Below are positions 27,718 through 44,952 of a DNA stretch of 64,000 nt, piece after piece. The DNA comes from Propionibacterium sp. Lineage in GTDB: Bacteria; Actinomycetota; Actinomycetes; Propionibacteriales; Propionibacteriaceae. Within the stretch, counting starts at the first letter, position 1, and every line of letters begins with the position of its first letter. The position numbers were made by a program, and so were the translations under genes. The notes beneath the pieces are model-generated. The model was not told the DNA's origin and did no database searches. It was given only the letters and a program-made list of their open reading frames with translations. The stretch lies in the NCBI GenBank assembly GCA_012517405.1, contig JAAYVB010000043.1, positions 1-64,000 of the forward strand, given 5' to 3'.

Positions 27718-27744
27718 GTGCCGGAGTCCTTGTGGCTCCGGCAC
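27718..27744. terminator. Hairpin, candidate terminator
   Basis: GTGCCGGAG and CTCCGGCAC pair perfectly over a 9-base loop. It lies 95 bp past whiB and ahead of the eut leader, so it would insulate the two. There is no T-run. Confidence 0.55.
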
Positions 27745-28047
27745 GATTCTGCTGGATGGCTCAGCAACTCCTCGTTACACCCTGGATGGCTTGAGCGCGC
27801 GCGAATCCGATCCCTGAACTCAAGCCGGATCCCTGCCCAAACTCCGTGCCGGGCCGGAGCTTTAACGATTTATCGGATTGCTCAGTGCGGTTCCGACGCG
27901 TTGAGATTAGCTTTTGCCGAGGATTCTTCGGCAGAGGGTAGCAAATCGTGGGCAAGATCGATTACGATCGTTAGACTGACGACAAACGCACGGGGCGGTG
28001 CGTTGAGCGTCTGGGGGCGGACGCGACTCAGGGATGAGGGGAATTCC
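27745..28047 (+). promoter_or_regulatory. Leader of the eut microcompartment operon
   Basis: About 300 bases of relatively low GC precede eutH. Seen: a direct repeat CTGGATGGCT at 27752 and 27782, 30 bp apart; a small hairpin TGCCGA/TCGGCA near 27915-27933; an inverted repeat GATCG-N4-CGATC near 27957; and the eutH ribosome site GATGAGGGG. No cobalamin riboswitch box, no T-rich terminator and no ANTAR-type paired hairpins were recognised, although such elements control eut operons in Firmicutes. The repeats are candidate operators only. Confidence 0.4.
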
Positions 28048-29217
28048 GTGGGAATTAATGAGGTCATCATATGGATCTTGATGATCTGTATGGTGCTGGG
28101 CGGCTTGGACCGCGCAATAGGCAATAAGTTCGGCTTGGGGGAGAAATTCGAAGACGGCATCAATGCCATGGGACCACTGGCGCTCTCCATGGTTGGTGTC
28201 TATGCTCTGTCGCCGATTCTGGCGAAAGTCTTGGGCGTAGTCATCCGTCCGGTTTATGGCTTCCTCGGTGCTGATCCAGCTATGTTCGCAGGGACTCTGC
28301 TAGCCAACGACATGGGTGGCTGGCCCTTGGCTCAGGCGCTGACCGACAATCCGGACGCACAGAAGCTGTCCGGTCTGGTCCTGGGCGCCATGATGGGCGC
28401 GACGATCGTGTTCACGATTCCAGTGGCGCTCGGCATTATCAATAAGGACGACCGGGGCTTCCTGGCGCGGGGTGTGCTGGCGGGTATCGTCACCATCCCG
28501 ATCGGCGTGGTGGTCTCAGGTCTGATCGCCGGCATGCCGGCCGGCTGGGTGCTGCGCCAGACCGTTCCGATCATCTTGGCGGCTGCACTGATCGCGGTCG
28601 GCCTGTGGTTCAAACCCGACGCCATGACCAAGGGATTCGAGGCATTCGGCAAAGGCCTGGTCTTCATGATTTCGGTTGGCCTGGTGATCGGAATTTTCCA
28701 GGAGATGACCGGCGTGATGATTCTCACCGGCGAATGGGAAATGCTGCCGGTGACCGACGGCTTCGCGATCGTCGCATCGATCGCCATGGCTTTGGCCGGG
28801 GCGTTCCCCGCGGTGCACCTGATCGTCACATTCGGCCAGAAACCGCTGTCCGCTTTCGGCCATTTGATCGGAATCAATGACACTGCGGCCGGTGGTTTGA
28901 TCGCGACACTCGCCAACAACATCGCGATGTTCGAGATCATGAAGAATATGGATGCCCGGGGCAAGATTCTCAACTGTGCCTTTGCGGTGTCGGCGGCCTT
29001 CACCTTCGGCGACCACCTGGGCTTCACCGCCGGTGTCATGCCGGACATGATCGCAGCGGTCATCGTGGGCAAACTCGCCGCTGGCATCACGGGTGTGATG
29101 GTGGCATATCTGCTGTTCGCCAGGACGTTCCCTGCTGTGGGAGCGGGCGAACAGGTCGCGGTGGCCACGGATGGCACCTCGGAGGTCGCCGGCGACGACG
29201 CACAACCGGAGAGTTGA
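28048..29217 (+). CDS. eutH: Ethanolamine transporter EutH
   Basis: A 389-residue integral membrane protein with about ten transmembrane helices, matching EutH along its length. Conserved stretches include TLLANDMGGWPLA and TFGDHLGFTAGVMPDM, typical of the family. It imports ethanolamine, or helps its diffusion, when the substrate is scarce. The GTG at 28048 follows GATGAGGGG and begins the EutH N-terminus (GINEVIIWIL). The C-terminal 20 residues are acidic and variable. It is the first gene of the microcompartment locus; eutN starts six bases later. Confidence 0.93.
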   Translation: MGINEVIIWILMICMVLGGLDRAIGNKFGLGEKFEDGINAMGPLALSMVGVYALSPILAKVLGVVIRPVYGFLGADPAMFAGTLLANDMGGWPLAQALTDNPDAQKLSGLVLGAMMGATIVFTIPVALGIINKDDRGFLARGVLAGIVTIPIGVVVSGLIAGMPAGWVLRQTVPIILAAALIAVGLWFKPDAMTKGFEAFGKGLVFMISVGLVIGIFQEMTGVMILTGEWEMLPVTDGFAIVASIAMALAGAFPAVHLIVTFGQKPLSAFGHLIGINDTAAGGLIATLANNIAMFEIMKNMDARGKILNCAFAVSAAFTFGDHLGFTAGVMPDMIAAVIVGKLAAGITGVMVAYLLFARTFPAVGAGEQVAVATDGTSEVAGDDAQPES

Positions 29218-29223
29218 TCGGAC

Positions 29224-29514
29224 ATGCGCATCGCACGAGTAGTCGGATCGGCAGTCTCGACGATCAAGGTCGACAGCCTGAGGGGCAGCAAACTGCTGGT
29301 GGTTCGCGAAGCGTCGGTCACCGATGAACTCGAAGGCAAGCCGTTCGTCGCCGTCGACGGTATCGGCGCCGGCGAGGGTGAGCTCGTCCTCATCAGTGAA
29401 GGCAGCGCCGGGCGGCACACCGAGTACACCGCGGATGCTCCGGTCGACGCTGTCATCATGGCGATCCTCGATTCGCTCGAGGTCGGTGGCCAGACCACGT
29501 TCAGAAAGAGCTGA
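29224..29514 (+). CDS. eutN: Microcompartment vertex protein EutN (BMC-P)
   Basis: A 96-residue protein of the CcmL/EutN family whose pentamers cap the twelve vertices of the shell. It shows the family N-terminus MRIARVVGSAVSTIK, the central DGIGAGEGELVLISEG and a C-terminal helix (VDAVIMAILDSLE). The length is exactly typical. It is translated six bases after eutH and followed by a strong hairpin at 29551-29570, which separates it from eutB. Confidence 0.93.
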   Translation: MRIARVVGSAVSTIKVDSLRGSKLLVVREASVTDELEGKPFVAVDGIGAGEGELVLISEGSAGRHTEYTADAPVDAVIMAILDSLEVGGQTTFRKS

Positions 29515-29570: not shown

Positions 29571-29722
29571 GCCCATCCAGTGTCACCACGACGGGGACGC
29601 TGTCACCAATCAGAGGGCACAGACCTTTGTAGACCCTTCGATTCAATCAAGACCAACGGGTAAGGGACACCCATACAACAAGGGAGCAAGACCGTGGATC
29701 ATCAAGACCAGGGGGTGAAGTG

Positions 29723-31090
29723 ATGTTGTTGCGGACGAAGTTGTTCGGGCACACATATGAGTTCGCCGACATCAAGGAGCTGTTGGCCAAGGCCAACGAG
29801 GAGAAGTCGGGCGACCAGCAGGCGGGAATCGCAGCCCACACGGCTGCCGAGCGGGTTGCGGCACGCGAAGTGCTGGCACAAGTGCCCCTCAGCGTTCTGC
29901 GCGAGAACCCTGCCGTGCCTTACGACCAGGACAATGTCACTCGCGCGATCGACGACGCCCTCAACGAGACGATCTACAACGAGATCAAGGGCTGGACGGT
30001 GGGCGAGTTCCGCGAATGGCTGCTGTCCAACCACACCACCGGCGCCGACATCCATCGGATCAGCAATTCGCTGACCGGTGAAATGATCGCCGGCGTCACG
30101 AAGCTGATGGGCAATCTCGACCTCGTGGTGGCGGCCAAGAAGATTCGCAACGTCACCCACTGTCAGAACACGATGGGCCTTCCCGGCACCATCGGCTCGC
30201 GCCTGCAGCCGAACCACCCGACGGACTCGGTCGAAGGCATCAAGGCCGCGATCTACGAGGGCCTGTCGTTCGGCTCCGGCGACTCGGTCATCGGAATCAA
30301 CCCGTCCGACGACACCGTGGGCTCGGTCGGCCGGCTGCTGGAAATGACCTACGACGTCATCTCGAAGTGGGAGATCCCCACGCAGAACTGCGTGCTGGGT
30401 CACGTGACCACCCAGATGGAATGCCTCAAACGGGGCGCTCCTGCCGGGCTGATCTTCCAGTCGATCGCCGGTTCGCAGAAGGCCATGGAGAGCTTCGGCG
30501 TCTCGGTCGATCTGATGGACGAGGCCTACGATCTGGCCAAGAAGTACTGCTGGACCTCGGGCCCGAACTACCTGTACTTCGAGACCGGCCAGGGCTCGGC
30601 ACTGTCGGCTGACGCCCACTTCGGTGCCGACCAGCTGGTGCTGGAGGCCCGCAACTACGCGCTCGCTCGCCGCTGGCATCCCTATCAGGTGAACACGGTG
30701 GTCGGCTTCATCGGCCCCGAGTACCTCTACGACTCGGTGCAGATCATCCGAGCAGGCCTGGAAGACCACTTCATGGGCAAGCTCGCCGGTATCTCGATGG
30801 GCTGCGACGTCTGCTACACCAACCACGCGAAGGCCGATCAGAACAGCAATGACAACCTGGCCGTGCTGCTGGCCGCTGCGGGCATCAACTACATCATGGG
30901 CATCCCGATGGGCGATGACGCGATGCTGAGCTACCAGACGACCAGCTACCACGATGCTCCCGCGATTCGGCAGGCGATGGACATGCGTCCGCTGCCCGAG
31001 TTCGAGAAGTGGATGGAACAGATGGGGCTGTGGCAGGACGGACAGCTCACTGACAAGGCCGGCGACGCGTCCATTTTCCTGCAGAGGTGA
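29723..31090 (+). CDS. eutB: Ethanolamine ammonia-lyase large subunit, canonical copy
   Basis: This is the TIM-barrel catalytic subunit of AdoCbl-dependent ethanolamine ammonia-lyase (ethanolamine to acetaldehyde plus ammonia). It has 455 residues. With ATG 29723 as residue 1 the numbering matches E. coli EutB. Substrate contacts Arg160 and Gln162 (SRLQPN), Asn193 (GINP), Glu287 (FETGQGS) and Asp362 (MGCDVCYTNH) are all present, as is Ser247 facing the cofactor. It pairs with eutC five bases downstream. Arg-Leu-Gln-Pro-Asn-His-Pro resembles Firmicutes enzymes. It is the lumenal signature enzyme. Confidence 0.97.
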   Translation: MLLRTKLFGHTYEFADIKELLAKANEEKSGDQQAGIAAHTAAERVAAREVLAQVPLSVLRENPAVPYDQDNVTRAIDDALNETIYNEIKGWTVGEFREWLLSNHTTGADIHRISNSLTGEMIAGVTKLMGNLDLVVAAKKIRNVTHCQNTMGLPGTIGSRLQPNHPTDSVEGIKAAIYEGLSFGSGDSVIGINPSDDTVGSVGRLLEMTYDVISKWEIPTQNCVLGHVTTQMECLKRGAPAGLIFQSIAGSQKAMESFGVSVDLMDEAYDLAKKYCWTSGPNYLYFETGQGSALSADAHFGADQLVLEARNYALARRWHPYQVNTVVGFIGPEYLYDSVQIIRAGLEDHFMGKLAGISMGCDVCYTNHAKADQNSNDNLAVLLAAAGINYIMGIPMGDDAMLSYQTTSYHDAPAIRQAMDMRPLPEFEKWMEQMGLWQDGQLTDKAGDASIFLQR

Positions 31091-31095
31091 ATCAG

Positions 31096-32001
31096 ATGAC
31101 CAACAGTGTTGAAGAAATCGTCGCCCGCGTTCTTGCGGAGCTCAAGCGTGAGGGCCTGGAGCCGCACAGCACCAAAGATGCACCTCAGGAGTCTCGGGTC
31201 TCCAACGTCGGGGGCGACCTCATCATCGACCTCGCCGATCCGACCCTCGACGGTCCACGGCATGCGATCGGCGTCGACCATCCCGCCGACCCCGAGGGGC
31301 TGCGCAACCTGATGAACTCCACCAGCGCCCGGTTGGGTGTCGGACGCGCTGGTCCGCGTCCGAAGACCAGCACCATGCTGCTCTTCCAGGCCGATCACGG
31401 TGTGACTCAGGACGCGATCTACGGCGTCGTCAGCGAAGAGGTCAAGCAGAAGTTCAACCTCTTCACGGTGCATACGCGGGTCGCCGATCGCGCCGAGTAC
31501 CTGCTGCGTCCCGACCTGGGCCGTCTGCTCAGCGACGAGGCCAAGCAGGAGATCAACGAGAAGTGCGTGAAGTCGCCCGACGTGCAGATCTGCGTCTCCG
31601 ACGGTCTGTCGGCGGCGGCGATCGACAACAATCTGCCCGACATCTATCCGGTCATCGAGCAGGGCCTGAAGTCCGCCGGTCTGAGCCTCGGCACGCCGTT
31701 CTTCATCGAGGACGGCCGCGTCGGCATCATGAACGACGTCAACTCGATTATCAAGGCCAAGGTCTTCGTCCTGCTGATCGGTGAGCGCCCAGGGCTGGGC
31801 ATCGCCGATGCGATGAGCGCCTACATGGGCTTCGATCCGCAGCCGGGCAAGTCGGACGCCGATCGCGATCTGATCTGCATGATCACCACCCACGGCGGCA
31901 CCAATCCCCTCGAGGCCGGTGCCTACATCGTCGAATTCATCAAGCGCATGATCCAGTACTCGGCTTCCGGCGTGAAGCTGCGCGAAGTTGCTGGCAGCTA
32001 G
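31096..32001 (+). CDS. eutC: Ethanolamine ammonia-lyase small subunit, first copy
   Basis: A 301-residue EutC that completes the AdoCbl site of EutB. Residues 2-18 (TNSVEEIVARVLAELKR) form an amphipathic helix of the encapsulation-peptide type, followed by a variable linker. The conserved cofactor-side motif GERPGLG is near residue 230. Where E. coli has ADRTCISNI this copy has ADRDLICMI, the form I associate with Firmicutes. I chose ATG 31096; an in-frame GTG at 31087 would add three residues. It is co-translated with eutB and eutL. Confidence 0.95.
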   Translation: MTNSVEEIVARVLAELKREGLEPHSTKDAPQESRVSNVGGDLIIDLADPTLDGPRHAIGVDHPADPEGLRNLMNSTSARLGVGRAGPRPKTSTMLLFQADHGVTQDAIYGVVSEEVKQKFNLFTVHTRVADRAEYLLRPDLGRLLSDEAKQEINEKCVKSPDVQICVSDGLSAAAIDNNLPDIYPVIEQGLKSAGLSLGTPFFIEDGRVGIMNDVNSIIKAKVFVLLIGERPGLGIADAMSAYMGFDPQPGKSDADRDLICMITTHGGTNPLEAGAYIVEFIKRMIQYSASGVKLREVAGS

Positions 32002-32018: not shown

Positions 32019-32675
32019 ATGGGAATCCTCGATCCTGTCAAGCCGTCGATCCTGGCGGTGCGGATCATTTCGAACGTTGACCGTGGCTTCGCTGAGAAGC
32101 TCGGTCTGGGAGACAACCATCGAGCATTGGGGCTCATCACCTGCGACATCGATGATGCCCTGTATGTCTCGCTCGACGAGGCGACCAAGTTCGCCGAGGT
32201 CGATGTGGTCTACGCGAAGAGCTTCTATGCAGGCTCCGGATACCCGTCGGGTCCGCTGTCGGGCGAGATCATCGGCATGCTTGCCGGTCCGACCCCGGCC
32301 GAGGTGCGCTCCGGCGTGGACGCCTGCGTCACGTTCTGCGAAGAAGAAGCGTGGTTCTACTCCGCCGATGAGGCCGGTCAGCTGAACTTCTTCCCGCACC
32401 TGATCAGCAGCACCGGTACCTACCTGTCGAAAGAAGCAGGCATCAACCCCGGTGAGTCGCTGGCCTACCTCATCGCTCCGCCGCTGGAGGCGACCTTCGC
32501 GCTCGATCTGGCCATGAAGGCCGCCGACGTCACGATGCAGGTCTACTTCGAACCGCCGAGCGAAACGAACTTCTCCGGCGGTCTGCTGACTGGTTCGCAG
32601 AGCGCCTGTCGCGCCGCGTGCGCCGCCTTCCAGGATGCGGTGCTCGACGTCGCGGCCGCTCCGAAGAAGTTCTGA
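32019..32675 (+). CDS. eutL: Microcompartment shell protein EutL (BMC-T)
   Basis: A 218-residue tandem-BMC-domain trimeric shell protein. The sequence matches EutL throughout: an N-terminal DPVKPSILAVRIISNVD, a central GPTPAEVRSGVDA and C-terminal GSQSACRAACAAF. EutL trimers carry a central pore that can be gated, for passage of larger molecules such as cofactors. GAAAGAGAGG upstream of ATG 32019 is the ribosome site. Confidence 0.95.
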   Translation: MGILDPVKPSILAVRIISNVDRGFAEKLGLGDNHRALGLITCDIDDALYVSLDEATKFAEVDVVYAKSFYAGSGYPSGPLSGEIIGMLAGPTPAEVRSGVDACVTFCEEEAWFYSADEAGQLNFFPHLISSTGTYLSKEAGINPGESLAYLIAPPLEATFALDLAMKAADVTMQVYFEPPSETNFSGGLLTGSQSACRAACAAFQDAVLDVAAAPKKF

Positions 32676-32705: not shown

Positions 32706-34235
32706 ATGAGCCAGACGACTATGGACGCCGACCTGCGGTCTATCCAGCAGGCGCGCGATCTGGCAGTCGGTGCGCGGGAGGCCATGCGGTCGTTCCAGTT
32801 CGCCTCGCAGCAGCAGGTCGACAAGATCTGTGAGGCGATGGTCGCCGCAGCCGTGCGTGAAGCCGAACGGCTGGGCCAGCTGGCCCACGACGAGACCGGT
32901 TTCGGGTACGCCGCGCACAAGAGGCTGAAGAACGAGTTCGCTGCCCAGGGGGTGTGGGACTCCATCAAGGACGTGCCCACCTGCGGTGTGCTGCGCCGCG
33001 ATGAGGTGAACAAGGTCGTCGAGATCGGCTGGCCGGTCGGGGTGATCGTTGCGCTGACCCCATCCACCAACCCGACCTCGACCGCGATCTTCAAGATCCT
33101 GATCGGTGTCAAGGCCCGCAACGCGGTCATCGTCGCCCCGCACCCGTCGGCCAAGAACTGCACCGCGGAGGCGGTCCGGGTGATGGCCGGGGCCGCCGAG
33201 GCGGCGGGGCTGCCCAAGGGCATGATCAGCTGCCTGACCGAGCTGACCATTCAGGGCACCAACGAGCTGATGAATCATTACGCCACCTCGATGATCCTGG
33301 CTACCGGTGGGCCGGGCATGGTCAAGGCTGCGCACAGCTGCGGCAAACCGGCCATCGGCGTCGGCCCGGGCAATGTCCCGGTCTACGTCGACCGCACGGC
33401 TCATATCGTCCGGGCCGCTCAGATGATCGTCGAGTCGAAGTCGTTCGACTGCTCGACGTTGTGTTCGAGCGAGCAGTGCGTCATCGCCGACCGTCCGATC
33501 GCCGAGCGGCTGAAGGCGGAGATGCAGGCTCGGGGCGCGTACTGGATGACCAAGGAGCAGGCCGACAGACTCGCCGGCATCATGTTCCGACCGAACGGGC
33601 TGATGATCGCCGAGTACGTCGGGCGCACGCCGCAGGCGTTGGCCGCAGCGGCGGGCTTCGAGGTTCCTGATTCGGCCCGGGTACTGGTGGCCGATCTCCA
33701 AGGCGTCGGGCCGAAGTACCCGCTGTCTCGGGAGAAGCTCACCTCCGTGCTCGGCTTCATGGTCGAGGACGGCTGGCGGGCGGGTTGCGAACGAGCCATT
33801 CAGCTGCTGCACTTCGGTGGCGACGGGCACTCAGTGTCGATTCATTCCCGCGATGAGGAGGCCATCTTGGCCTTCGGCATCGAAAAGCCGGCCTTCCGGA
33901 TCCTGGTCAACACCTGGAGCACCCTGGGTGCCGTCGGGTTGACCACCGGTGTGCGCCCCTCGTTCACCCTCGCGCCGGGAGGAATCGGCGGGTCGGTGGT
34001 CAGCGGCAACGTGACGGTGGAGCATGTGCTCAACGTCAAGCGGCTCGCCTACCACCTGCATTCGGCACCCGAGGCTGCCCGGGCGCACGGCGGGGTGCTC
34101 GCCGATGTGGACGTCGAAGCGGGCGAGGACGATACCGCGACGACTGCGGCGGCGCCGGTCGGCAAGCCCCAGGACGCCGATGCAGCTCTCGTGGAGAAGG
34201 TCGTCCGCCAGATCCTGCTGGAACTTCACAAGTGA
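32706..34235 (+). CDS. eutE: CoA-acylating acetaldehyde dehydrogenase
   Basis: A 509-residue aldehyde dehydrogenase converting acetaldehyde, CoA and NAD+ to acetyl-CoA inside the shell. The catalytic Cys region is [11 protein letters not shown], with C253 the likely nucleophile. Cofactor-region motifs include [14 protein letters not shown], and [10 protein letters not shown] follows. After the catalytic domain a disordered Ala/Thr/Asp linker (about 460-488) leads to a helix [12 protein letters not shown] at the very C-terminus. That helix is an encapsulation-peptide signature; the enterobacterial enzyme carries its peptide at the N-terminus. TCAAGGAGTG precedes ATG 32706. Confidence 0.95.
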
Positions 34236-34254: not shown

Positions 34255-34812
34255 ATGAGCGAAACTCAAAGTGAACGGGCCACCCGTCCGAGGAAGGCCC
34301 CAGCCGGCGCAGCGGCGCGCAAGAAGGCTCCCGCAACCAGTGATGTCACACTCGCGGCCGCCGAGCCCGTGGTGACGGTCGCCGAACAGGCCTCCGCCGC
34401 CCAAGAACCACCTCAGACAACTGAACAGGCCACCGCACAACGGGTTGAGGCGCCGGCCACGACCCCCGAACCCACAACCACTGAAAACACAGCAGCAACT
34501 ACTAGAAGGAGTACTCCCATGGCTGATGTCAACATGATCGCGCTCGGAATGGTCGAGACTAAGGGCCTCGTCGGCGCCATCGAGGCTGCCGATGCGATGG
34601 TGAAGGCCGCCAACGTCAGGCTGATCGGCAAGGAACAGATCGGTGCCGCCTACGTGACCGTGATGGTGCGCGGTGACGTGGGCGCGGTCAAGGCCGCCAC
34701 CGATGCCGGTGCAGCGGCTGCGGCCCGTGTCGGCGAGCTCATCTCGGTGCACGTGATCCCGCGCCCGCACGGCGATGTGGAGCTCATCTTGCCGCATCGC
34801 TCGGCCGAGTGA
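34255..34812 (+). CDS. eutM: BMC-H shell protein EutM with an 88-residue N-terminal extension
   Basis: A 185-codon frame. Residues 89-185 are a complete canonical BMC-H hexamer subunit ([20 protein letters not shown] onward, ending VELILPHR), the main facet tile. Residues 1-88 are an unrelated extension: basic at first ([17 protein letters not shown]), then Ala/Pro/Thr/Glu-rich and probably disordered. Both starts have excellent ribosome sites: GAGGAGGT before ATG 34255 and AGAAGGAG before ATG 34519. Two isoforms from one gene are therefore likely, as for PduB/PduB'. A hairpin at 34837-34872 follows. Confidence 0.93.
34504..34521 (+). promoter_or_regulatory. Internal ribosome site and start for short EutM
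   Basis: AGAAGGAG at 34504-34511, a 7-base spacer and ATG at 34519 (codon 89 of the long frame) make a near-ideal initiation site exactly at the first residue of the conserved BMC domain. Short EutM would have 97 residues, the standard size of this shell protein. Confidence 0.8.
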
Positions 34813-34915: not shown

Positions 34916-35554
34916 ATGGCCAAGATCGTCGTTACCGCTGCTGAGGTGCAACAGGCCGCGTCCAGCGGAGTTCTCCAGGTTCCTGCAGGTGCCATCGTTA
35001 CTCCGTTGGCCAAGGATGTGGCTGCCGAATTGGGTGTGACGATCACCCGGTCGGGCGGTTCGGCTCCGGCCGCCGGCGCTGCCGCAGCGCCCGCGCGGTC
35101 CGGCACCGACGATCTGACCGATCGCGTCCGCGCCATCGTGACATCGTTGTTGGGTTCAGGTGGGGGCGGTCCGGCCGCCCCCACCGTGGCCCGCAAACCG
35201 GTGAAGCTGTCCAGCATCCGCGATGCCCGGCTGGAGCGATTCCCTTATCCGGGCCCGCCCGCCGACATGGAGGTCAAGACCGTCGACGTCGTGACCGCCG
35301 ACGACGGTGCGCCCGTGGCCACCGGGTACATGTCGATCACCAAGGGCTCCTTCCCATGGACGTTGACCTATGACGAGGTACAGATCGTCCTCGAGGGTGA
35401 GCTTCATCTGGGTGGCGACGCCGGCGGCAAGGTCGGATATCCCGGCGACGTCTTCTATGTGCCGAAAGGATCGTCGATCACCTTCGGTACTCCGAGCTGG
35501 GCGAAGTTCGTGTACGTCACGTTCCCTGCCAATTGGGAGGACCAGATCGGATGA
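34916..35554 (+). CDS. eutQ: EutQ, cupin-type acetate kinase/accessory protein
   Basis: A 212-residue EutQ, reported in Salmonella to have acetate kinase activity and to be needed for shell assembly. Residues 1-45 form a small module (VVTAAEVQQA, then PAGAIVTPLAKDVA) shared with EutT and the 95-residue protein at 37816. An Ala/Pro linker and an amphipathic stretch (TDDLTDRVRAIVTSLL, about 65-80) follow. The C-terminal cupin barrel (about 105-212) has the pattern VLEGELHLGG, PGDVFYVPKGSSITF. Its stop overlaps the eutT start (ATGA). Confidence 0.92.
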   Translation: MAKIVVTAAEVQQAASSGVLQVPAGAIVTPLAKDVAAELGVTITRSGGSAPAAGAAAAPARSGTDDLTDRVRAIVTSLLGSGGGGPAAPTVARKPVKLSSIRDARLERFPYPGPPADMEVKTVDVVTADDGAPVATGYMSITKGSFPWTLTYDEVQIVLEGELHLGGDAGGKVGYPGDVFYVPKGSSITFGTPSWAKFVYVTFPANWEDQIG

Positions 35555-36339: not shown

Positions 36340-37178
36340 TGAGCCCCTCAGTCCGCCAGACCATGCGCCAGGCCGCCGATTCACTGGCCCGGCCCCGGCA
36401 TATCGATCCAGCCGTGCCGATCAAGGTCGGGGTCGACCTCGGCACAGCCTTCACCGTGATCATGGTCACCGACGAGAACGGCAAGCCGCTGGCTGCCGCC
36501 AATAAGTTCGCCGATGTGGTGCGCGACGGCATCGTCTGGGATTTCGCGGGCGCGATGGCTGTGGTCCGCGAACTCAAGGACCGTCTGGAGGCGGCCACTG
36601 GACGCACCCTGAGCACGGGTTCCGTGACGATCCCGCCGGGTGTCTCGATCAGCGACGGTCGCGCTCACCATTACGTGCTCGAAGGTGTCGGCATCGAATG
36701 CACCGCGGTCGTCGACGAGCCGACTGCGGCGAACGCTGTGCTCGGTGTCCGTAACGGGGCCGTGGTCGACATCGGTGGCGGGACGACCGGGGTCGCGGTC
36801 ATCCGCGACGGTCAGGTCGTCGTCACGTCGGACGAACCCAGCGGCGGCACCCACATGTCACTGGTGATCTCGGGTGCCTTCAAGATTCCGTTCGCCGAAG
36901 CCGAGGCGCGCAAGGTCGACACCGCGCAACACGGCGTCCTGCTGCCGGTAGTGCGTCCGACGATGCAGAAGATCGCCACCATCGTGCGCGACGCGATAGC
37001 CGGTCAGGACGTGCAGCGCATTCACATGGTCGGCGGCAGCAGCGCCTTCGCAGGTTTTGCCGAGGTCATGACCGAGGTCACCGGCGTCGCCAGCGAAGTC
37101 GCCCCCGAACCGATGCTCGTCACCCCGTTGGGCGTGGCCGAATGGGCCAGGCCGATCACAGAAGAAGGAAGTGTCTGA
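36339..37178 (+). CDS. eutJ: EutJ, Hsp70-like chaperone
   Basis: A 279-residue actin/Hsp70-fold ATPase. Phosphate-binding loops are VGVDLGTAFTVIMV (about 30-43) and VVDIGGGTTGVAVI; the adenosine loop is HMVGGSSAFAGF. It lacks the Hsp70 substrate-binding domain, as EutJ does. It is thought to help fold or load cargo during microcompartment assembly; direct evidence is thin for the family. TAATG overlap with eutT shows coupled translation. Confidence 0.92.
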   Translation: MSPSVRQTMRQAADSLARPRHIDPAVPIKVGVDLGTAFTVIMVTDENGKPLAAANKFADVVRDGIVWDFAGAMAVVRELKDRLEAATGRTLSTGSVTIPPGVSISDGRAHHYVLEGVGIECTAVVDEPTAANAVLGVRNGAVVDIGGGTTGVAVIRDGQVVVTSDEPSGGTHMSLVISGAFKIPFAEAEARKVDTAQHGVLLPVVRPTMQKIATIVRDAIAGQDVQRIHMVGGSSAFAGFAEVMTEVTGVASEVAPEPMLVTPLGVAEWARPITEEGSV

Positions 37179-37179
37179 T

Positions 37180-37806
37180 ATGGCTGGACAACCCGATTTC
37201 CAGTTACGCGCCTTCTGCCATCTGGACCGCATCCAGCCGCAGTTCGCGGCCTTCGTCGGCGCGATCGCCTCGGGTGCTCCTCCGGTGGAGGGCATGAGCA
37301 GCCTGTATGTCGAGATGGCGCCGGGCAACTGGGTCTTCCGCGTCATGGACAAGGTGCTCAAGGCCGTGGACGTGCAGCCCGGCGCACAGGTGGTCGAGCG
37401 CCAGTTCGGCATGTTCGAGGTGCATTCGATGTCGCAGGCCGACGTTCTACGGGCCGGCGACGTGGTACTCGAATTCCTGGATCGCCCGCGTGACTCACGG
37501 ATCGCGCCCAAGATCGCCTCCGAGCAGATCATCACCAACGTGCATCCCGCCCAGGCCCAGGTGCTGAACCGATTCAACCGCGGCACCATGATCGAAGGCG
37601 GCCAGACGATGCTCGTCATGGAAGTCGAGCCGGCCGCCTATATCGCCATCGCGGCGAACGAGGCGGAGAAAGCCGCGCCGGTCTTCCTCAACCACATGAG
37701 CTCGGTCGGGGTCTACGGACGCATGTGGATGTCGGGCAGCGAGTCCGATGTCTACGCCGCACGTGAGGGCGCCGCCACTGCCATCAGCTCCATCACCGGC
37801 CAATAA
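37180..37806 (+). CDS. Tandem-domain BMC-T shell protein
   Basis: A 208-residue protein with two BMC-like repeats (about 7-105 and 110-205), hence a trimeric shell tile. Typical stretches are LRAFCHLDRIQPQFAAFVG, VVERQFGMFEVHS and NRGTMIEGGQTMLVMEVEPA. It is not EutL; it resembles the BMC-T proteins of actinobacterial (RMM-like) and Clostridium microcompartments. The ATG at 37180 is preceded by AAGAAGGAAG; a GTG at 37171 would overlap eutJ. The domain order should be checked for circular permutation. Confidence 0.88.
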   Translation: MAGQPDFQLRAFCHLDRIQPQFAAFVGAIASGAPPVEGMSSLYVEMAPGNWVFRVMDKVLKAVDVQPGAQVVERQFGMFEVHSMSQADVLRAGDVVLEFLDRPRDSRIAPKIASEQIITNVHPAQAQVLNRFNRGTMIEGGQTMLVMEVEPAAYIAIAANEAEKAAPVFLNHMSSVGVYGRMWMSGSESDVYAAREGAATAISSITGQ

Positions 37807-37815
37807 GGAGTAGTC

Positions 37816-38103
37816 ATGTCACGCCGTGTCATTACCGCCACGACCATCAACGAACTGCTGGCCCAGGGAACGACCTGCCTGCAACTGGAGCCCGGCGACA
37901 TCATCACCGCGCTGGCCGCCGAGGATGCCCAACGCAAGGGCCTTCGGGTCATCCCGGCCAAGGCCGCGGCGCGCGCACAGCCGACGGGGGCTGCCCCCAG
38001 TGATGCGGACAACGAGCACGCCGAAGTGCGCAAGGCCGTCATCGCCGCGCTGGGCCACACTCCCGAGGGCCTGGACCAGATCATCTCCAAGGTCATGAAG
38101 TAA
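37816..38103 (+). CDS. Small microcompartment adapter-like protein with EutQ N-terminal module
   Basis: A 95-residue protein I cannot name. Residues 1-46 (VITATTINELLAQG, then PGDIITALAAEDAQRKGL) follow the same pattern as the N-termini of EutQ and EutT in this locus. After a short Ala/Pro linker, residues 68-95 form an amphipathic helix pair (EVRKAVIAALG, LDQIISKVMK) like an encapsulation peptide. It therefore looks like the shared module attached to a shell-targeting helix with no enzyme. AAGGAG precedes ATG 37816, ten bases after the BMC-T gene. A scaffold or cargo linker is inference. Confidence 0.8.
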   Translation: MSRRVITATTINELLAQGTTCLQLEPGDIITALAAEDAQRKGLRVIPAKAAARAQPTGAAPSDADNEHAEVRKAVIAALGHTPEGLDQIISKVMK

Positions 38104-38114
38104 AGGCTTGGGCC

Positions 38115-40175
38115 GTGACCACCGAGTTCGGACGGCCGGCGGTGTATCTGTGCCCGACGGAGCACTGTCCGCACCTGTTGCAGATCGCTGTCGGCCTGCT
38201 GCCCGAGATGGCCAGCCGTTACGGCAGGGTTGGGGTCTACCGTCCGATCGTTGCCGAGCCGGTCGCCGACCGGGTGCTCAACGAGATGCTCCGCCTGACC
38301 GACCCATCCGACAGTCTCGAGCACTGGGGTGCCACCGCCGACGAGGTGCTGCACAATCCGTCCGGTGCGATGACCCAGATTATCGCCCGGTACTCCGACT
38401 GCGTGGCCCACTATGACGCGCTGCTGGTGCTGGGCAGTGAGTACGACTGCTCGCTCGCGCCCATCGAGTTCGCGTGGAACACCCGTATCTCGGCCAACAT
38501 CGACGTTCCGATGACCTTGGTGGTGCCCTCGAACGGTGGTGCCGCGGAGACCGTCCAGCGGGCCGCGGTGGCCATCGACGAGGCGACCCGCAATTTCGCG
38601 CAGGTGCTCGCGGTGATCGCGCCCCGCGCTGCCGGTCAGCAACTCGACGTGTCCGAACTGTCGGACATCATCGTGCCCGCGTTCGTGGTGGACGAGGTGA
38701 CCGGCGCGGCCAACGGCCTGGCCGGCGCGCTGGATGCGCTCGGCGCCACCGTCATCGCGGGCGCCCAGGACCTGTCCGGCCTGCATGCCGGCAAGCTGCT
38801 CATCGCAGACATGGGCCTGACCAACCTGCTGCCCGAGGTCAAGGCCGACGCCACAGTCGTCTTCTCCGCCGATCGCAGTGAGATCGGGCTCGGGCTGCTG
38901 ATCGGCGGCGCATCCGGACGATTCCCCCGGCCGGCCGCCGCGATTGCTGCCGGCCCGTGGCCGCTGGCCGACGAGGTGCGCGTGCTGTGGAACAAACTGG
39001 CCCCGCAGACACCGCTGCTGCGTTCGGTCAACACCATCGAACAGGTCTACCTGACGGTGAAGAACTACGAGAAGGTGCCGGCGCGGTTGAACGCGGTACA
39101 GCTGGCCCAGGCCCGCCGAGTCGTCGCCTCCGAGGTGGACGCATCCCTGTTGCTCGACAACGCTCATCCGATCGGGCGCGAGGACATCGTCACCCCGCTC
39201 ATGTTCGAGCATCGGCTGCTCGAGCAGGCCCGGCGGGTGAATAAGCACATCGTCTTGCCCGAGGGCACCGAGGAACGCATCCTGCGCGCGGCGCACCGCC
39301 TGGCCGAGCAGAAGATCTGTCGGCTGACTCTGCTGGGCGACCCGGCGGCGATCGGGCAGTTGGCCGCCGAGCTGGGCCTGACGATCGACGGCATTCAGTT
39401 GATCGATCCCCAGACCAGCCAGCTGCGCGAGCAGTTCGCCGCCCACTACGCCGAACTGCGTGCCAAGAAGGGCGTGACGCTCGAGCAGGCCCGGGAACGG
39501 GTCGCCGATGTCAGCTACTTCGGCACCATGATGGTCCTCGAGGGGCTGGCCGACGGGATGGTCTCCGGCTCGGTCAACACGACCGCGCACACCATTCGTC
39601 CGGCGCTGGAGGTCATCAAGACCAAGCCGGGCGTGTCGGTGGTCTCCTCGGTCTTCTTGATGTGCCTGGCCGACCGGGTACTGGTCTTCGGCGATTGCGC
39701 GGTCAACCCCAACCCGACGCCCGACCAGGTCGCCGATATCGCGATCAGCTCGGCGGCCACGGCCAAGCAGTTCGGTATCGAGCCCAAGGTCGCGATGCTG
39801 TCGTATTCGACCGGCACCTCCGGCACCGGCCCCGATGTCGAGCAGACGATCGAGGCGACCCGGCTGGTGCGGCAGCGGGCACCCGGGTTGATCGTGGACG
39901 GCCCGCTGCAATACGACGCCGCCGTCGATGCCGCAGTGGCCCGCACCAAACTGCCGGATTCGCCGGTGGCGGGTCAGGCAACGGTGCTGATCTTCCCCGA
40001 TCTGCAGACCGGCAACAACACCTACAAGGCGGTGCAGCGTAGCGCCGGAGCCTTGGCGATCGGGCCGGTTCTGCAAGGACTCAACAAGCCTGTCAACGAT
40101 CTCTCACGAGGTGCTCTGGTCGCCGATATCGTCAACACGGTCGCCATCACCGCTATTCAGGCCGGATTGGAATGA
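38115..40175 (+). CDS. pta: Phosphate acetyltransferase, long form
   Basis: A 686-residue phosphotransacetylase (acetyl-CoA plus phosphate to acetyl phosphate plus CoA), recycling CoA in place of EutD. Layout: an N-terminal BioD/CobB-like domain (1-210) without a recognisable Walker A loop, a DRTGG domain (about 215-330) and the catalytic PTA domain from about 365 (VLPEGTEERILRAA, SYFGTMMVLEG, YSTGTSGTGPDVE). Microcompartment Pta enzymes are usually short, so the three-domain housekeeping-type protein is unusual here. No encapsulation peptide is visible, so it may act outside the shell. Start GTG 38115. Confidence 0.93.
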   Translation: MTTEFGRPAVYLCPTEHCPHLLQIAVGLLPEMASRYGRVGVYRPIVAEPVADRVLNEMLRLTDPSDSLEHWGATADEVLHNPSGAMTQIIARYSDCVAHYDALLVLGSEYDCSLAPIEFAWNTRISANIDVPMTLVVPSNGGAAETVQRAAVAIDEATRNFAQVLAVIAPRAAGQQLDVSELSDIIVPAFVVDEVTGAANGLAGALDALGATVIAGAQDLSGLHAGKLLIADMGLTNLLPEVKADATVVFSADRSEIGLGLLIGGASGRFPRPAAAIAAGPWPLADEVRVLWNKLAPQTPLLRSVNTIEQVYLTVKNYEKVPARLNAVQLAQARRVVASEVDASLLLDNAHPIGREDIVTPLMFEHRLLEQARRVNKHIVLPEGTEERILRAAHRLAEQKICRLTLLGDPAAIGQLAAELGLTIDGIQLIDPQTSQLREQFAAHYAELRAKKGVTLEQARERVADVSYFGTMMVLEGLADGMVSGSVNTTAHTIRPALEVIKTKPGVSVVSSVFLMCLADRVLVFGDCAVNPNPTPDQVADIAISSAATAKQFGIEPKVAMLSYSTGTSGTGPDVEQTIEATRLVRQRAPGLIVDGPLQYDAAVDAAVARTKLPDSPVAGQATVLIFPDLQTGNNTYKAVQRSAGALAIGPVLQGLNKPVNDLSRGALVADIVNTVAITAIQAGLE

Positions 40176-41203
40176 TGATGGAAACTTTGATGAATGCGGC
40201 TGTGGTCACCCGGTTCCGTCACCCGCTCGAGCTGCGCCAGCTGCCGGTACCCACCCCCGGCCCCGGCCAGGTCCTGGTCCGGGTCCGGGCCTGCGGAGTC
40301 TGCCATACCGACCTGCATGCCGTTGAAGGTGATTGGCCCGACAAGCCATCGTTGCCGCGAGTACCCGGCCACGAGGCGGTCGGCGAGGTCGTCCAGTTGG
40401 GCCCGGGGGTGGACTATCTCAGCATCGGCGACCGGGTCGGCGTGCCGTGGCTGCACTGGGCCTGCGGAACCTGTGAGCAGTGCCTGTCGGGCTGGGAGAC
40501 ACTGTGCAACCAGCAGTTGCGCTCCGGCTACGACGTCGATGGTGGCTTCGCCGAATACCTGGTGGCCTATGGACGGTTCGCGACGAGACTGCCCGACGGG
40601 CTCGACTACATCGCCGCAGCGCCGCTGATCTGCGCGGGCCTGACCGTCTACAAAGGCCTGATGATGGCCGACGCCGACCCGGGTGACTGGGTGGTCATCT
40701 CCGGCATCGGGGGTCTGGGACATCTGGCCGTCCAGTACGGCAGGGCGATGGGATTCCAGGTGGTCGCCGTCGACATCGACGACGCCAAGCTGAACCTGGC
40801 GGCCCGGCTGGGTGCGACCATGACCATCAACGTCCGCAACACCGACCCGGTCGGCTATCTGCAGCGTCAGATCGGTGGTGCGCACGGCGCCCTGGTGACC
40901 GCCGTTTCCCCGCCGGCCTTCGGGCAGGCGGTCGGCATGATGCGTCCTGGTGGCACCGTGGTGCTCAACGGCTTGCCCCCGGGCGATTTCCCGTTGTCGA
41001 TCTACGACATGGTGATGCGCGCCATCACCTTGCGCGGGTCGATCGTGGGTACCCGCTACGATCTGGGGCGTGCACTGCACCTGGCGGCGCAGGAGAAGAT
41101 CGCTGCCACGGTACAGACCGCGAGGCTGCAAGACATCAACGAGGTGATGGAGCACATGCAGACCTCCGCGCTGCCTGGGCGCACCGTGCTCGAACTCGGC
41201 TGA
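40172..41203 (+). CDS. adhP: Zinc-dependent alcohol dehydrogenase (AdhP type)
   Basis: A 343-residue medium-chain dehydrogenase reducing acetaldehyde to ethanol and recycling NADH. Catalytic zinc ligands are Cys in GVCHTDLHA and His in GHEAVG. Structural zinc is CGTCEQCLSGWETLC. The NAD loop is SGIGGLGHLAV followed by the Asp of VAVDID, favouring NAD over NADP. It replaces the iron-type EutG of enterobacterial loci. The ATG at 40172 overlaps the pta stop (ATGA); a second in-frame ATG at 40190 is possible. Confidence 0.93.
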   Translation: MMMETLMNAAVVTRFRHPLELRQLPVPTPGPGQVLVRVRACGVCHTDLHAVEGDWPDKPSLPRVPGHEAVGEVVQLGPGVDYLSIGDRVGVPWLHWACGTCEQCLSGWETLCNQQLRSGYDVDGGFAEYLVAYGRFATRLPDGLDYIAAAPLICAGLTVYKGLMMADADPGDWVVISGIGGLGHLAVQYGRAMGFQVVAVDIDDAKLNLAARLGATMTINVRNTDPVGYLQRQIGGAHGALVTAVSPPAFGQAVGMMRPGGTVVLNGLPPGDFPLSIYDMVMRAITLRGSIVGTRYDLGRALHLAAQEKIAATVQTARLQDINEVMEHMQTSALPGRTVLELG

Positions 41204-41206
41204 GCC

Positions 41207-42637
41207 ATGAGCGAAACCGTCATCAGTGTCGGTATCGACGTCGGTACCTCCACCACCGAACTGGTATTCAGCAGGCTGACGATCGAGAACGTGGCCGGCG
41301 CCTTCGTCGTGCCGCGCATCTCGATCGTCGACAAGACGGTCATCTATCGCAGCCGCATCTATCTCACGCCACTGATCAATCCCGAATTGATCGATGTGGA
41401 CGCGCTGCGGACGATCGTCGAGGACGAATACCGCGCGGCCGGGGTGAAACCATCCGACGTGCATACCGGTGCTGCGATCATCACCGGTGAGACCGCCCGC
41501 GCCGACAACGCCGAGCAGGTCTTGCAGGCGCTCAGTGAACTCGCCGGTGACTTCGTCGTCGCCGCCGCCGGCCCGCTGCTCGAAGCGGTGCTGGCGGCCC
41601 GCGGGGTCGGCATCGATTCGTGGTCACGGGACAATCCCCAGGTCATCGCCAATCTCGACGTCGGTGGCGGGACGACCAACATTGCGGCCTACCGGTTCGG
41701 CCGGCTGCTCGGGGCGTCCTGCCTGGATATCGGCGGACGCCTGGTGCGGGTCGACAGTGGCAAGATCAGCTACATCTCGCATCAGATCCGCCGGCTCGCC
41801 GCGGCATCCGGTATCCCGCTGGAGGTGGGCGATCGCGCCGATCTGGAGCGCCTGCGGACCCTGGCAAGGGTGATGGCCAGGCAACTGGCGATGGGCGTCG
41901 GGCTGATCTCCCGAGATGAGATGCACTCGACCATGTACACCAACATGGGACGACCGCTCGGTTCCGAGATCATCCCGGCGGCGATCAGCTTCTCCGGTGG
42001 CGTGGCCGATCTGATCGATGCCGATCGCAGCTCGAACCCGTTCCGCTTCGGCGACATTGGGCCGCTGCTGGGTGCCGCGATCGCTGACGAGAGCGCATTC
42101 GGCCTGGTGAAGCGCTATCACGGCGCGGAAACCATCGGTGCGACGGTAGTGGGCGCGGGTGTCCACACCATGGAGATCAGCGGGTCGACGATCGAGTACG
42201 CGCGGGAGCTGCTGCCGATCCGCAATGTGCCGATCCTGCGGGTTCCCGATGAACAGGCAGCCGACCCGGCCCGGTTGGCGGCCGCGATCAAAGAGCAACT
42301 CGCCCTGCTCAATCCCGACGATCTCAGTCGTGCGGTGGCGGTCTGCTTCAGCGGTCAGCACATCAATTCGTTCGCCTCGGTTCAGGAGACGGCGCAGGCG
42401 ATCATCGACGGCGCGGCCACCATCTTGAACGGGCCCAATCCGCTGGTGGTCGTCCTGGAAAACGACCGCGCCAAGGTGCTCGGCCAATCCCTCGCGGTGC
42501 AACGTGGGCGCCGCGATGATGTGGTCTGCATCGACGGCGTCCACACCGGGTTGGGCGATTACATCGACATCGGTGCACCGGTGGGCGCCGGGCAGGCGGT
42601 GCCGGTGGTGGTGAAGACTCTGGTCTTCAACGATTGA
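41207..42637 (+). CDS. eutA: EutA, ethanolamine ammonia-lyase reactivase
   Basis: A 476-residue Hsp70-fold ATPase that expels damaged cobalamin from EutBC. Phosphate loops are SVGIDVGTSTTELVF (residues 7-21) and NLDVGGGTTNIAAYRFG. The conserved KRYHG and FSGQH regions fit EutA. It starts three bases after adhP. It lies between the canonical modules and the second lyase pair, and may serve both. Confidence 0.93.
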   Translation: MSETVISVGIDVGTSTTELVFSRLTIENVAGAFVVPRISIVDKTVIYRSRIYLTPLINPELIDVDALRTIVEDEYRAAGVKPSDVHTGAAIITGETARADNAEQVLQALSELAGDFVVAAAGPLLEAVLAARGVGIDSWSRDNPQVIANLDVGGGTTNIAAYRFGRLLGASCLDIGGRLVRVDSGKISYISHQIRRLAAASGIPLEVGDRADLERLRTLARVMARQLAMGVGLISRDEMHSTMYTNMGRPLGSEIIPAAISFSGGVADLIDADRSSNPFRFGDIGPLLGAAIADESAFGLVKRYHGAETIGATVVGAGVHTMEISGSTIEYARELLPIRNVPILRVPDEQAADPARLAAAIKEQLALLNPDDLSRAVAVCFSGQHINSFASVQETAQAIIDGAATILNGPNPLVVVLENDRAKVLGQSLAVQRGRRDDVVCIDGVHTGLGDYIDIGAPVGAGQAVPVVVKTLVFND

Positions 42638-42713: not shown

Positions 42714-44078
42714 ATGAAGTTAGCAACCAGCCTGAATGGGCACAGCTTTCGCTTCACGAGCATCACCGATGTGCTGGCCAAAGCCAGCGAACCCAAAGCG
42801 GGGGATCGGCTGACCGGCATCGCTGCCGAGACAGCCTCCGAACGGCTGGCTGCCAAGGTCGTCTTGTCGGAGCTGACGGTGGGCGAGCTGACCGAGAATC
42901 CGACCGTGCCGTACGAGGACGATGAGGTCACCCGGGTGAACTGGGACGGCCTCAACCAGCCCGGCTACGAGTCCATGAAGACCATGACGATCGGCGAGCT
43001 GCGCGAGTGGGTGCTCGATCACAAGACCACCCCTGACGTGCTGAAGCGCTCCGGACGCAATTTCGTGGGCGAGGTGGCATCCGCGGTGGCCAAGATCATG
43101 ACTTCGATGGATCTGGTCTACGGCGCGTCCAAGATTCGCTATGTCACCCACTGCAATACCGAGATCGGCCAGGCCGGCACGATCTCGTATCGTGCTCAGA
43201 CCAACTCGACCACCGATGACCCGGAGACAATCGTGCTCGGACTGGCCGAGGCGGTCTCCTTCGGGTGCGGCGATGCCTGTCTGGGTATCAATCCGGTCGG
43301 TGACGACCCGGCCAACACCAAACGGATCGCCGATGCGGTGTGGCATTTCATGGTCCGCAACGAGATCCCGACTCAGGTCGTGGTGCTCTCTCACATCACC
43401 ACCCAGATGGAGGCGTTGCGCCGGGGAGCACCGCTGTCGATGATCTTCCAGTCGATCGCCGGCACCCAGGGTGCCAACGACGACTTCGGGGTCACGCGGG
43501 AGCTGCTCGAGGAGGCCTATGAGCTGGTGAAACAGTACGGCCAGTGCCAGGGAGCGAACCTGCTCTACTTCGAGACCGGGCAGGGCTCCGAGGTGTCGAT
43601 CGGACGCGACCGTGGTGTTGACGAGCAGACCCTGGAAGCGCGCACCTACGGCTTCGGACGTTTCTTCCGGCCGTTCATGGTGAACAACGTCTCGGGGTTC
43701 ATCGGGCCGGAGACGATCTACGACGGCAAGGAAATGATCCGGGCGAATCTGGAGGACCATTTCATGGGCAAGTTCCTCGGCCTGCCGATGGGTATGGCGC
43801 CCTGCTGGACGAACCACACGTCGATCACCATGGACGATCAGCAGCAGGCGACGATGCTGCTGGCGTTGGCCGGCGCCAACTACTACATGGGTGTCCCGCT
43901 GGCCGACGATGTCATGCTCGCCTACCAGGACACCAGCTTCCACGACGATGCCACGCTGCGCGAACTGCTGGGACGTACCGCGGCTCCCGAGTTCCACCGC
44001 TGGATGGTCTCGCGGGGACTGTGCGACGACAGTGGCGTGCTGACCGAGCGGGCCGGTGACGGCTCGATCTTCTTCTGA
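42714..44078 (+). CDS. eutB2: Second, divergent ethanolamine-ammonia-lyase-like large subunit
   Basis: A 454-residue EutB homologue whose numbering also matches E. coli EutB. Arg160 and Gln162 (SYRAQTN), Asn193 (GINP), Glu287 (FETGQGS), and cofactor-facing Ser247, Phe258 and Leu402 are kept. Residue 362, an Asp that binds the substrate amine in known enzymes, is Ala here (GMAPCWTNH, codon GCG at 43797-43799). The following YTNHAKADQN of EutB1 becomes WTNHTSITMDD. The barrel is intact, so an active enzyme on another amino alcohol is plausible; a regulatory or dead subunit is also possible. AGGGGAGGGAG precedes ATG 42714. Confidence 0.9.
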   Translation: MKLATSLNGHSFRFTSITDVLAKASEPKAGDRLTGIAAETASERLAAKVVLSELTVGELTENPTVPYEDDEVTRVNWDGLNQPGYESMKTMTIGELREWVLDHKTTPDVLKRSGRNFVGEVASAVAKIMTSMDLVYGASKIRYVTHCNTEIGQAGTISYRAQTNSTTDDPETIVLGLAEAVSFGCGDACLGINPVGDDPANTKRIADAVWHFMVRNEIPTQVVVLSHITTQMEALRRGAPLSMIFQSIAGTQGANDDFGVTRELLEEAYELVKQYGQCQGANLLYFETGQGSEVSIGRDRGVDEQTLEARTYGFGRFFRPFMVNNVSGFIGPETIYDGKEMIRANLEDHFMGKFLGLPMGMAPCWTNHTSITMDDQQQATMLLALAGANYYMGVPLADDVMLAYQDTSFHDDATLRELLGRTAAPEFHRWMVSRGLCDDSGVLTERAGDGSIFF

Positions 44079-44106
44079 ACCGGGCTGTGAGTGAAAGGTG
44101 AGCGTG

Positions 44107-44952
44107 ATGAACGATCAGGAGATGGAACTCATCGTCCGCCGGGTGCTCAGCGAACTGGGGGTCGGCGCTGCCGTAGCCACCACCGAGGACGATGAGATCC
44201 CCGATATCCGGCAGGTCGACTACCGGATGACCTATGACGTGGCGCACCCCGCGAACCCGGAGCGGTTCGCGCAGGTGAAGGCTCGCACCTGGGCCCGGCT
44301 GGGGCTGGGACGCAGCGGTCCGCGCTATACGACCAGTGCGCTGCTGCGTTTCTGGGCGGACAACGCCTCGGCTCAAGATGCCGTGTTCACCGATGTGGAT
44401 CCGGATCTGCTGGAACAGCTGGGGCTGTTCAGCGTGCAGACCAGGTGCACCTCGAAGGACGAGTACCTGACCCGGCCCGATCTGGGCGCACAATTCGACG
44501 ACGAGACCCTCGCCGAGATCAAGAAGCGCTGCGTCGCCGATCCGCAGGTGCAGGTCTACGTTTCCGACGGGCTGTCGTCGACGGCCGTCGAGGCCAACGT
44601 CCGCGATCTGCTACCCGCGCTCGAGCAGGGGCTGAAGCTGCACGGGCTGAGCGTGGGAACGCCGTTCTTCGTGAAGTACGGCCGCGTGCGCTCCATGGAG
44701 CCGATCTCGCAGACCCTCGGCGCGAGGGTCACCTGTGTGCTGCTGGGTGAGCGTCCCGGGCTTGCTACGCCGGAGTCGCTGTCGGCCTATCTGGCCTACC
44801 GGGCTCGGGTCGGCATGCCCGAGTCGGAGCGCAACTGTGTCTCCAACATCCACCGCGAGGGCACTGGGCCGGTCGAGGCCGGGGCCCACATCGCTGATCT
44901 GATCGCCAAGATGATCGAACAGCAGGTGTCGGGGATCAACCTCAAGGTCTGA
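44107..44952 (+). CDS. eutC2: Second ethanolamine-ammonia-lyase-like small subunit
   Basis: A 281-residue EutC homologue paired with eutB2. Residues 1-17 (MNDQEMELIVRRVLSEL) form an encapsulation-peptide-like helix, so the pair is probably cargo of the same shell. The cofactor-side LLGERPGLA motif is present. Unlike EutC1 it has ERNCVSNI, matching the E. coli Cys258 region. I chose ATG 44107; GTG 44098 and GTG 44104 are alternatives. It is the last gene of the locus. Its differences from EutC1 argue against recent tandem duplication. Confidence 0.9.
   Translation: MNDQEMELIVRRVLSELGVGAAVATTEDDEIPDIRQVDYRMTYDVAHPANPERFAQVKARTWARLGLGRSGPRYTTSALLRFWADNASAQDAVFTDVDPDLLEQLGLFSVQTRCTSKDEYLTRPDLGAQFDDETLAEIKKRCVADPQVQVYVSDGLSSTAVEANVRDLLPALEQGLKLHGLSVGTPFFVKYGRVRSMEPISQTLGARVTCVLLGERPGLATPESLSAYLAYRARVGMPESERNCVSNIHREGTGPVEAGAHIADLIAKMIEQQVSGINLKV

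Follow-up and report, generated by a model that had tools for sequence, protein, structure and literature searches.

Why does a single ethanolamine utilisation (eut) gene run encode two ammonia-lyase pairs, and on what does the second pair act? The question arises from a stretch of 64,000 nucleotides of Propionibacterium sp. (assembly GCA_012517405.1, contig JAAYVB010000043.1, positions 1 to 64,000; the window in the following), in which eut and microcompartment genes run on the + strand from EutH (27718) to EutC2 (44952) and include two lyase pairs, EutB1/EutC1 and EutB2/EutC2 (Table 1). EutB1 and EutB2 are the only EutB matches of the window's genome (G000, 3.17 Mb, 46 contigs). By sequence comparison, EutB2/EutC2 is part of an anciently diverged and widespread EutBC branch in which Ala362 and Asp406 replace Asp362. 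We propose, at what we regard as evenly balanced chances, that the pair is an adenosylcobalamin-dependent lyase for N-methylated ethanolamines, giving acetaldehyde and a methylamine.

EutB2 follows the numbering of E. coli EutB at all positions checked and retains R160, Q162, N193, S247, F258, E287 and L402. As the initial annotation had stated, these residues are kept, position 362 carries Ala in place of Asp, which we take to be the amine ligand in ethanolamine ammonia-lyase, and the EutB1 motif RLQPNHP reads RAQTNST. The rewritten segment that had been described is also real, since YTNHAKADQN aligns with WTNHTSITMD, but the 11-letter version given for EutB2 (WTNHTSITMDD) is one residue too long. 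EutB2 belongs to the EutB family (Pfam PF06751, 574.5 bits, above the cut-off of 25) and its predicted model has the ethanolamine ammonia-lyase fold. On NF011649 (ethanolamine ammonia-lyase large subunit) it scores 547.5 bits, below the cut-off of 554 (EutB1, 658 bits); among the traits of this type it has the fold, R160, Q162, N193 and E287, with Asp362 absent. In comparison to the known EutBC enzymes (E. coli 3abo; Listeria 2qez), the fold, the seven retained residues, the EutC partner and an adjoining EutA-like reactivase gene are shared, whereas EutB2 has Ala362/Asp406 instead of Asp362/Thr406 and differs at further branch-specific positions. EutC2 lies above the NF003971 cut-off (Table 1), and EutC1 scores lower (256.9 bits). 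The encapsulation-like helix ascribed to EutC2 corresponds to an N-terminal helix-like stretch, MNDQEMELIVRRVLSELG; EutC1 likewise has one. Because EutB2 and EutB1 share 48% and EutC2 and EutC1 44% identity, the pairs do not stem from a recent duplication, as already concluded in the initial annotation. The motif difference cited for this, ADRDLICMI in EutC1 versus ERNCVSNI in EutC2, exists, but E. coli EutC has ADRTCISNI at this site and it is EutC1, not EutC2, that departs from it.

Ala362 had been read as the loss of an amine ligand. The acid is indeed gone from position 362, but it is swapped to Asp406 and not simply lost. Among 296 rows (loci plus the 120 listed EutB2 homologues, two sources that overlap), 208 combine A362 with D406, which is every Ala362 row with position 406 filled, 85 have D362 and, at 406, one of the residues C, S, T, A or N but never an acid, and three have A362 with a gap at 406. 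Two acids never occur together, and wherever both positions are filled one of them is an acid. Two homologues (P0105 and P0111, 93% mutual identity) that are nested inside the window-type clade (28-row set, 100% support in the Shimodaira-Hasegawa-like approximate likelihood ratio test, SH-aLRT) carry Asp362 again, together with Asn406 and Asn412, and keep most other A-type residues. Because the A362/D406 tally is exclusive and this pair regained D362 with N406, the acid has apparently shifted from one of the two positions to the other. A simple loss of the amine-binding acid was ruled out by this swap, and on these alignments the acid appears relocated from 362 to 406 rather than deleted. In the predicted model, residue 362 is at the end of strand 359-363 and residue 406 in the loop that follows the adjacent barrel strand 390-393, which fits a substrate that is still cationic, with space where the D type grips a primary amine. 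A pocket no longer binding amines would be expected of a B12-dependent diol or ether lyase (for example ethylene glycol to acetaldehyde); this is very improbable, given an acid at 406 in all filled A362 rows that is back at 362 once gone from 406. A cation is probably still bound, because an acid is present at one of these positions in every row with both filled. A further listed homologue with D362, P0116, has a mosaic look, with more likeness to EutB2 up to about residue 350 and to EutB1 from there on; this could be recombination or misassembly, and the protein was excluded from the final tree.

How old and how widespread is this type? Ala362 is found in 117 of the 120 listed EutB2 homologues (among 8000 scored), and 155 distinct EutB proteins, with the D type fetched from the same and related genomes, comprise 91 A362 and 64 D362 and no other residue. 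Therefore, Ala362 is beyond chance, and its conservation rules out decay or a sequencing oddity. In a genome contig scan (best 80 of 324 loci), Ala362-type loci were detected in Propionibacteriaceae, gut Firmicutes (Flavonifractor, Intestinimonas, Butyricicoccus, Proteiniclasticum), Alkaliphilus, Geosporobacter, Synergistota, spirochaetes, deltaproteobacterial metagenome-assembled genomes (MAGs), Sporomusa and Desulfosporosinus. EutB of the window type, marked by Ser165 (S165), occurs in Flavonifractor, Intestinimonas and Butyricicoccus. When residue 362 was mapped on a EutB phylogeny, a check proposed earlier, A362/D362 was one change on a single branch at 99% SH-aLRT (106-row tree); the same single change, again at 99%, was obtained in a 104-row tree with E. 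coli and the 18 EutB-bearing of 396 actinobacterial genomes. Both trees were made with a quick method and SH-aLRT support only, with columns 358-366 left out and P0105, P0111 and P0116 outside; adding the P0105/P0111 pair raises the changes required for the A362/D406 label to two. Either the A or the D side could be ancestral, because the tree is unrooted and sampling began from the A type. Between thinned sets (44 D, 45 A), positions 325, 327, 334, 345, 362, 363, 376, 379, 406 and 412 are fully different. More than one EutB match was present in 42 of 50 A362 genomes searched; the other eight, without a second match, are mostly MAGs and maybe incomplete. A non-catalytic, regulatory or decaying EutB2 could be suspected from the loss of one substrate ligand. 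This is highly unlikely given the substrate-side and cofactor-side residues conserved across the 120 listed homologues, the wide spread of the branch and the eight genomes in which no other EutB was matched.

At 13 loci (L039-L045, L048, L050, L052, L055, L058 and L062) a tandem of one Asp362 eutB and one Ala362 eutB has only one eutC behind it, as though the same small subunit served both large subunits; L046, which begins inside such a locus, was left uncounted. Another arrangement is seen at L007/L174 (G005:C111), where a degraded second eutL, eutT, eutJ, pta, adh, eutB2 and a pump gene lie 3' of an intact operon.

Which substrate might the Ala362 type accept? In Desulfosporosinus, the Ala362 eut operon is followed 3' by genes for a PocR/AraC-like regulator, corrinoid proteins, an APH-family kinase and an MttB-family methyltransferase, and the cluster continues with a methyltetrahydrofolate methyltransferase and a HAD phosphatase. 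Leaving aside regulator and phosphatase, the E. limosum Mth system (MthK/MthB/MthC/MthA) has the same make-up. There, MthK converts choline to phosphocholine, the compound that MthB demethylates; excerpts of the same report describe co-located MthK and MthB homologues in Sporomusa malonica and Ca. Formimonas warabiya (PMC12155760). Ala362 eut operons of Desulfosporosinus and Sporomusa have a cluster of this make-up next to them, and those of termite deltaproteobacteria its kinase and MttB parts. With the Formimonas kinase as query, the matches listed included a Sporomusa malonica protein (57% identity) and many from Desulfosporosinus. We use the names mthK and mthB for likely homologues only, because no E. 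limosum protein is among the 120 matches listed.

The linkage was counted for all 37 full-length EutB genes of the G049 class (probably Desulfitobacteriia; 82 genomes, kinase in 15, EutB in 23), with flanks of up to about 10 kb to either side. At least one of four methyltransferase-system genes was present at 16 of 17 Ala362 loci versus 0 of 20 Asp362 loci. At the exception, G080, the contig ends about 0.5 kb beyond EutA, and some of the Asp362 loci are on short contigs (the shortest 3.1, 3.3 and 7.6 kb). The kinase, and with it an mthK/mthB-like cluster, is found at 13 of the 17 Ala362 loci (those without the kinase are G053, G078, G084 and G080); in G075 the kinase adjoins a EutB fragment bearing D406 and D412, and in G079 it is on a contig of 5.7 kb that has no EutB. 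In Sporomusaceae (12 genomes, 8 EutB), such genes are present at three of four Ala362 versus none of four Asp362 loci, with the kinase of G528 and G532 on another contig. Ten of the 50 searched A362 genomes have a kinase match, in seven within about 11 kb of the A362 eutB and in G001, G036 and G043 not near it. At L167 and L251, about 4-6 kb separate the Ala362 eutB from mttB-like genes that contain an in-frame TAG, and the presence of these genes would fit trimethylamine as a product there. N,N-dimethylethanolamine use is tabulated for Sporomusa sphaeroides (in an extract of PMC6315149).

Other genes recur in these neighbourhoods. A protein of about 585 residues with no NCBIfam or Pfam match at the thresholds used is encoded beside mth-like genes and Ala362 eut operons (L065:6229-7986; also L044, L071, L073 and L077). 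An EamA-family transporter, a candidate amine carrier, recurs near Ala362 eut or mth-like genes (L065, L070, L071, L073, L077, L078, L252), and a divergent EutH (about 31-37% identity to that of the window), possibly for another cargo, is near Ala362 eutB at L004, L005, L006, L063, L067, L075, L076 and L172.

The amine site is altered and the paralogue is old, and EutB2C2 probably converts a different substrate into something usable by the EutE/Pta/alcohol dehydrogenase core. To this extent the different amino alcohol postulated in the initial annotation stands. The compounds named there, 1-amino-2-propanol and 2-amino-1-propanol, are without any supporting result. A longer or branched amino alcohol of this kind could be accommodated by the many pocket-region changes, including those at 160-165 in the window's subclade, but the change at 362 is presumably on the amine side, the linked genes of relatives handle N-methyl groups and no result points to a C3 substrate; we consider it improbable. 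N-methylated ethanolamines are partly supported by the neighbourhoods of relatives, and better than aminopropanols. Candidate substrates are choline, dimethylaminoethanol or methylethanolamine. Ala362 would free space at the substrate nitrogen for methyl groups, and Asp406 would hold the cation from elsewhere. The B12 radical reaction would then release the amine, and acetaldehyde would pass to EutE, Pta and alcohol dehydrogenase. In anaerobes with an mth-like cluster, choline might be phosphorylated, demethylated and dephosphorylated before the remaining N-methyl ethanolamine is cleaved; the window's bacterium might use choline, dimethylaminoethanol or methylethanolamine as such, with the amine as an excreted product. 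More tentatively, we suggest a second, B12-dependent microcompartment route for choline, in which the Ala362/Asp406 EutBC would have arisen from an ethanolamine enzyme by the move of one Asp from 362 to 406. In sulfate reducers and acetogens it would supply the step that is lacking after choline demethylation of the Mth type, and propionibacteria and gut Firmicutes would carry it without Mth.

Several observations weigh against this proposal, above all for the window's own subclade. Methyltransferase-system genes are present at only 15 of the 80 loci overall, namely 14 of 44 H165 loci (eight of them Desulfosporosinus loci that are also in the class count) and one of 36 S165 loci (Butyricicoccus, L015/L206, PF06253). 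The Fisher p of 1.3e-9 for 16/17 versus 0/20 loci is from a statistic that ignores kinship. Among window-type genomes, one of 22 searched has a kinase match, on another contig, and the kinase genes of Ca. Formimonas are located away from EutB. No PF06253 (MttB family) match was obtained in the window's genome, nor an MthK-like kinase match in a search without a positive control genome, so the two components needed for Mth choline demethylation were not found there. Because the linkage is thin in the S165 subclade and these matches are missing, the substrate of the window's EutB2 is assigned by descent. Ser165 and the other changes of the subclade could even mean a further substrate shift. In G003, a propionibacterial MAG, no EutBC other than a window-type pair was found, and this pair belongs to a complete eut operon that lacks the cluster, as would be expected of an ethanolamine enzyme; the window type can therefore probably serve a microcompartment alone, irrespective of its substrate. 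Ethanolamine may still bind to the Ala362 type, because one acid is kept.

The main rival explanation is an ordinary ethanolamine ammonia-lyase isozyme with its amine-binding acid at 406, kept for a different affinity or regulation. Besides the preserved acid and G003, it is favoured by EutV/EutW-type regulators, which often stand beside window-type pairs, and by the EutH permease in the window (the sole EutH match of the genome). However, the ten or so fully different positions, the second EutB match in most A362 genomes and the methyltransferase neighbours, which differ between A362 and D362 operons of the same genomes, argue against it, and we consider it rather unlikely. No substrate is consistently indicated by the other neighbours of window-type loci (amine oxidase, GntR, Na:alanine symporter, ABC transporter, GGDEF). 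For Ca. Formimonas, 3.1 acetate and 1.3 methylamine per choline are given in the extract available (PMC8163858). By our arithmetic, 2.75 acetate per methylamine would be expected from the published route through betaine and sarcosine and equally from one through methylethanolamine, so this stoichiometry has no discriminating power.

Known systems resemble the proposed one in part. CutC is a glycyl radical choline trimethylamine-lyase, which converts choline to acetaldehyde and amine, often in a microcompartment. EutB2C2 is predicted to give the same kind of products from choline, but CutC is an unrelated glycyl radical enzyme, and the EutB2 model has the EutB fold. The E. limosum Mth system makes dimethylaminoethanol and leaves the C-N bond uncleaved, and its description, as excerpted, mentions no Eut gene (PMC12155760). 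Pelobacter carbinolicus also has two EutBC per genome (eutBC1 and eutBC2), but unlike in the window they are fused and the copies are 70% identical; choline cleavage has been voiced before for this species, its authors suggesting that one EutBC might be a choline trimethylamine-lyase (PMC3543383, in extract). EUT3 and EUT-module satellite loci have EutA/B/C with EutL and a double-layer BMC-T, as in the window, and the excerpted text mentions no second, Ala362-type lyase (PMC8217296). Here, the double-layer BMC-T is the 37171-37806 product, though it scores below the CcmP cut-off of 340, and EutA-EutB2-EutC2 modules are present in L008 and L021. Among the titles and abstract openings listed in searches of open-licence full texts, none described a EutB of the Ala362 type, a B12-dependent lyase acting on methylated ethanolamines, the two-residue signature, the acid swap or the methyltransferase linkage.

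The eutB2 and eutC2 reading frames are intact, separated by 19 bp and located at the 3' end of the eut/microcompartment run (Table 1).

Table 1. Features of the eut/microcompartment run in the window, with diagnostic codons of eutB2.
Feature	Position	Strand	Score
EutH permease and BMC-P vertex protein	27718..29514	+	
eutB1-eutC1, Asp362 pair	29720..32001	+	
EutL shell protein	32019..32675	+	
EutE-like acetaldehyde dehydrogenase	32706..34235	+	TIGR02518 569.8 bits, cut-off 620.1
CcmP-like double-layer BMC-T shell protein	37171..37806	+	NF053796 221.6 bits, cut-off 340
Shared core: phosphate acetyltransferase, zinc alcohol dehydrogenase	38115..41203	+	
eutA-like reactivase, directly 5' of eutB2	41207..42637	+	NF007992 555.9 bits, cut-off 598
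eutB2, large subunit, Ala362/Asp406 type, 454 aa, ATG start	42714..44078	+	
RAQTNS, residues 160-165 (EutB1: RLQPNH); Ser165 marks the window's subclade	43191..43208	+	
Ala362 codon GCG (Asp in E. coli EutB and EutB1)	43797..43799	+	
Asp406 codon (Thr in E. coli EutB and EutB1); acid accompanying Ala362	43929..43931	+	
eutC2, small subunit, 284 aa, GTG start	44098..44952	+	NF003971 299.7 bits, cut-off 230

Further genes of the run are less clear. An EutM-like shell protein (34255-34812) has, as called, an N-terminal extension of about 93 residues, and its real start may be later. The 34916-35554 product best matches the C-terminal part of EutQ, and a small protein of 95 residues (37816-38103) has a weak likeness to the EutQ N-terminal part (26.9 bits). 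Directly after eutC2, a pyrophosphatase-type ion pump (45126-47768) has, as called, a lipoprotein-like start (LTGLLAGCS) before its first membrane segments. A search for riboswitches gave no Rfam match at the gathering score within 24-48 kb of the window, and promoter and terminator patterns at 42.4-45.3 kb did not exceed their frequency in shuffled sequence.

If the proposed function is correct, genes named ethanolamine ammonia-lyase would hide a second enzyme type that can be read from two residues, and choline-type amines would have, beside the glycyl radical enzyme CutC, a further route to acetaldehyde and methylamines that needs no oxygen. The 362/406 swap and the natural revertant pair would provide a ready-made experiment on amine choice by a B12 radical lyase. 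Given the gut carriers Flavonifractor, Intestinimonas and Butyricicoccus, this would also bear on the sources of methylamines in sediments and guts.
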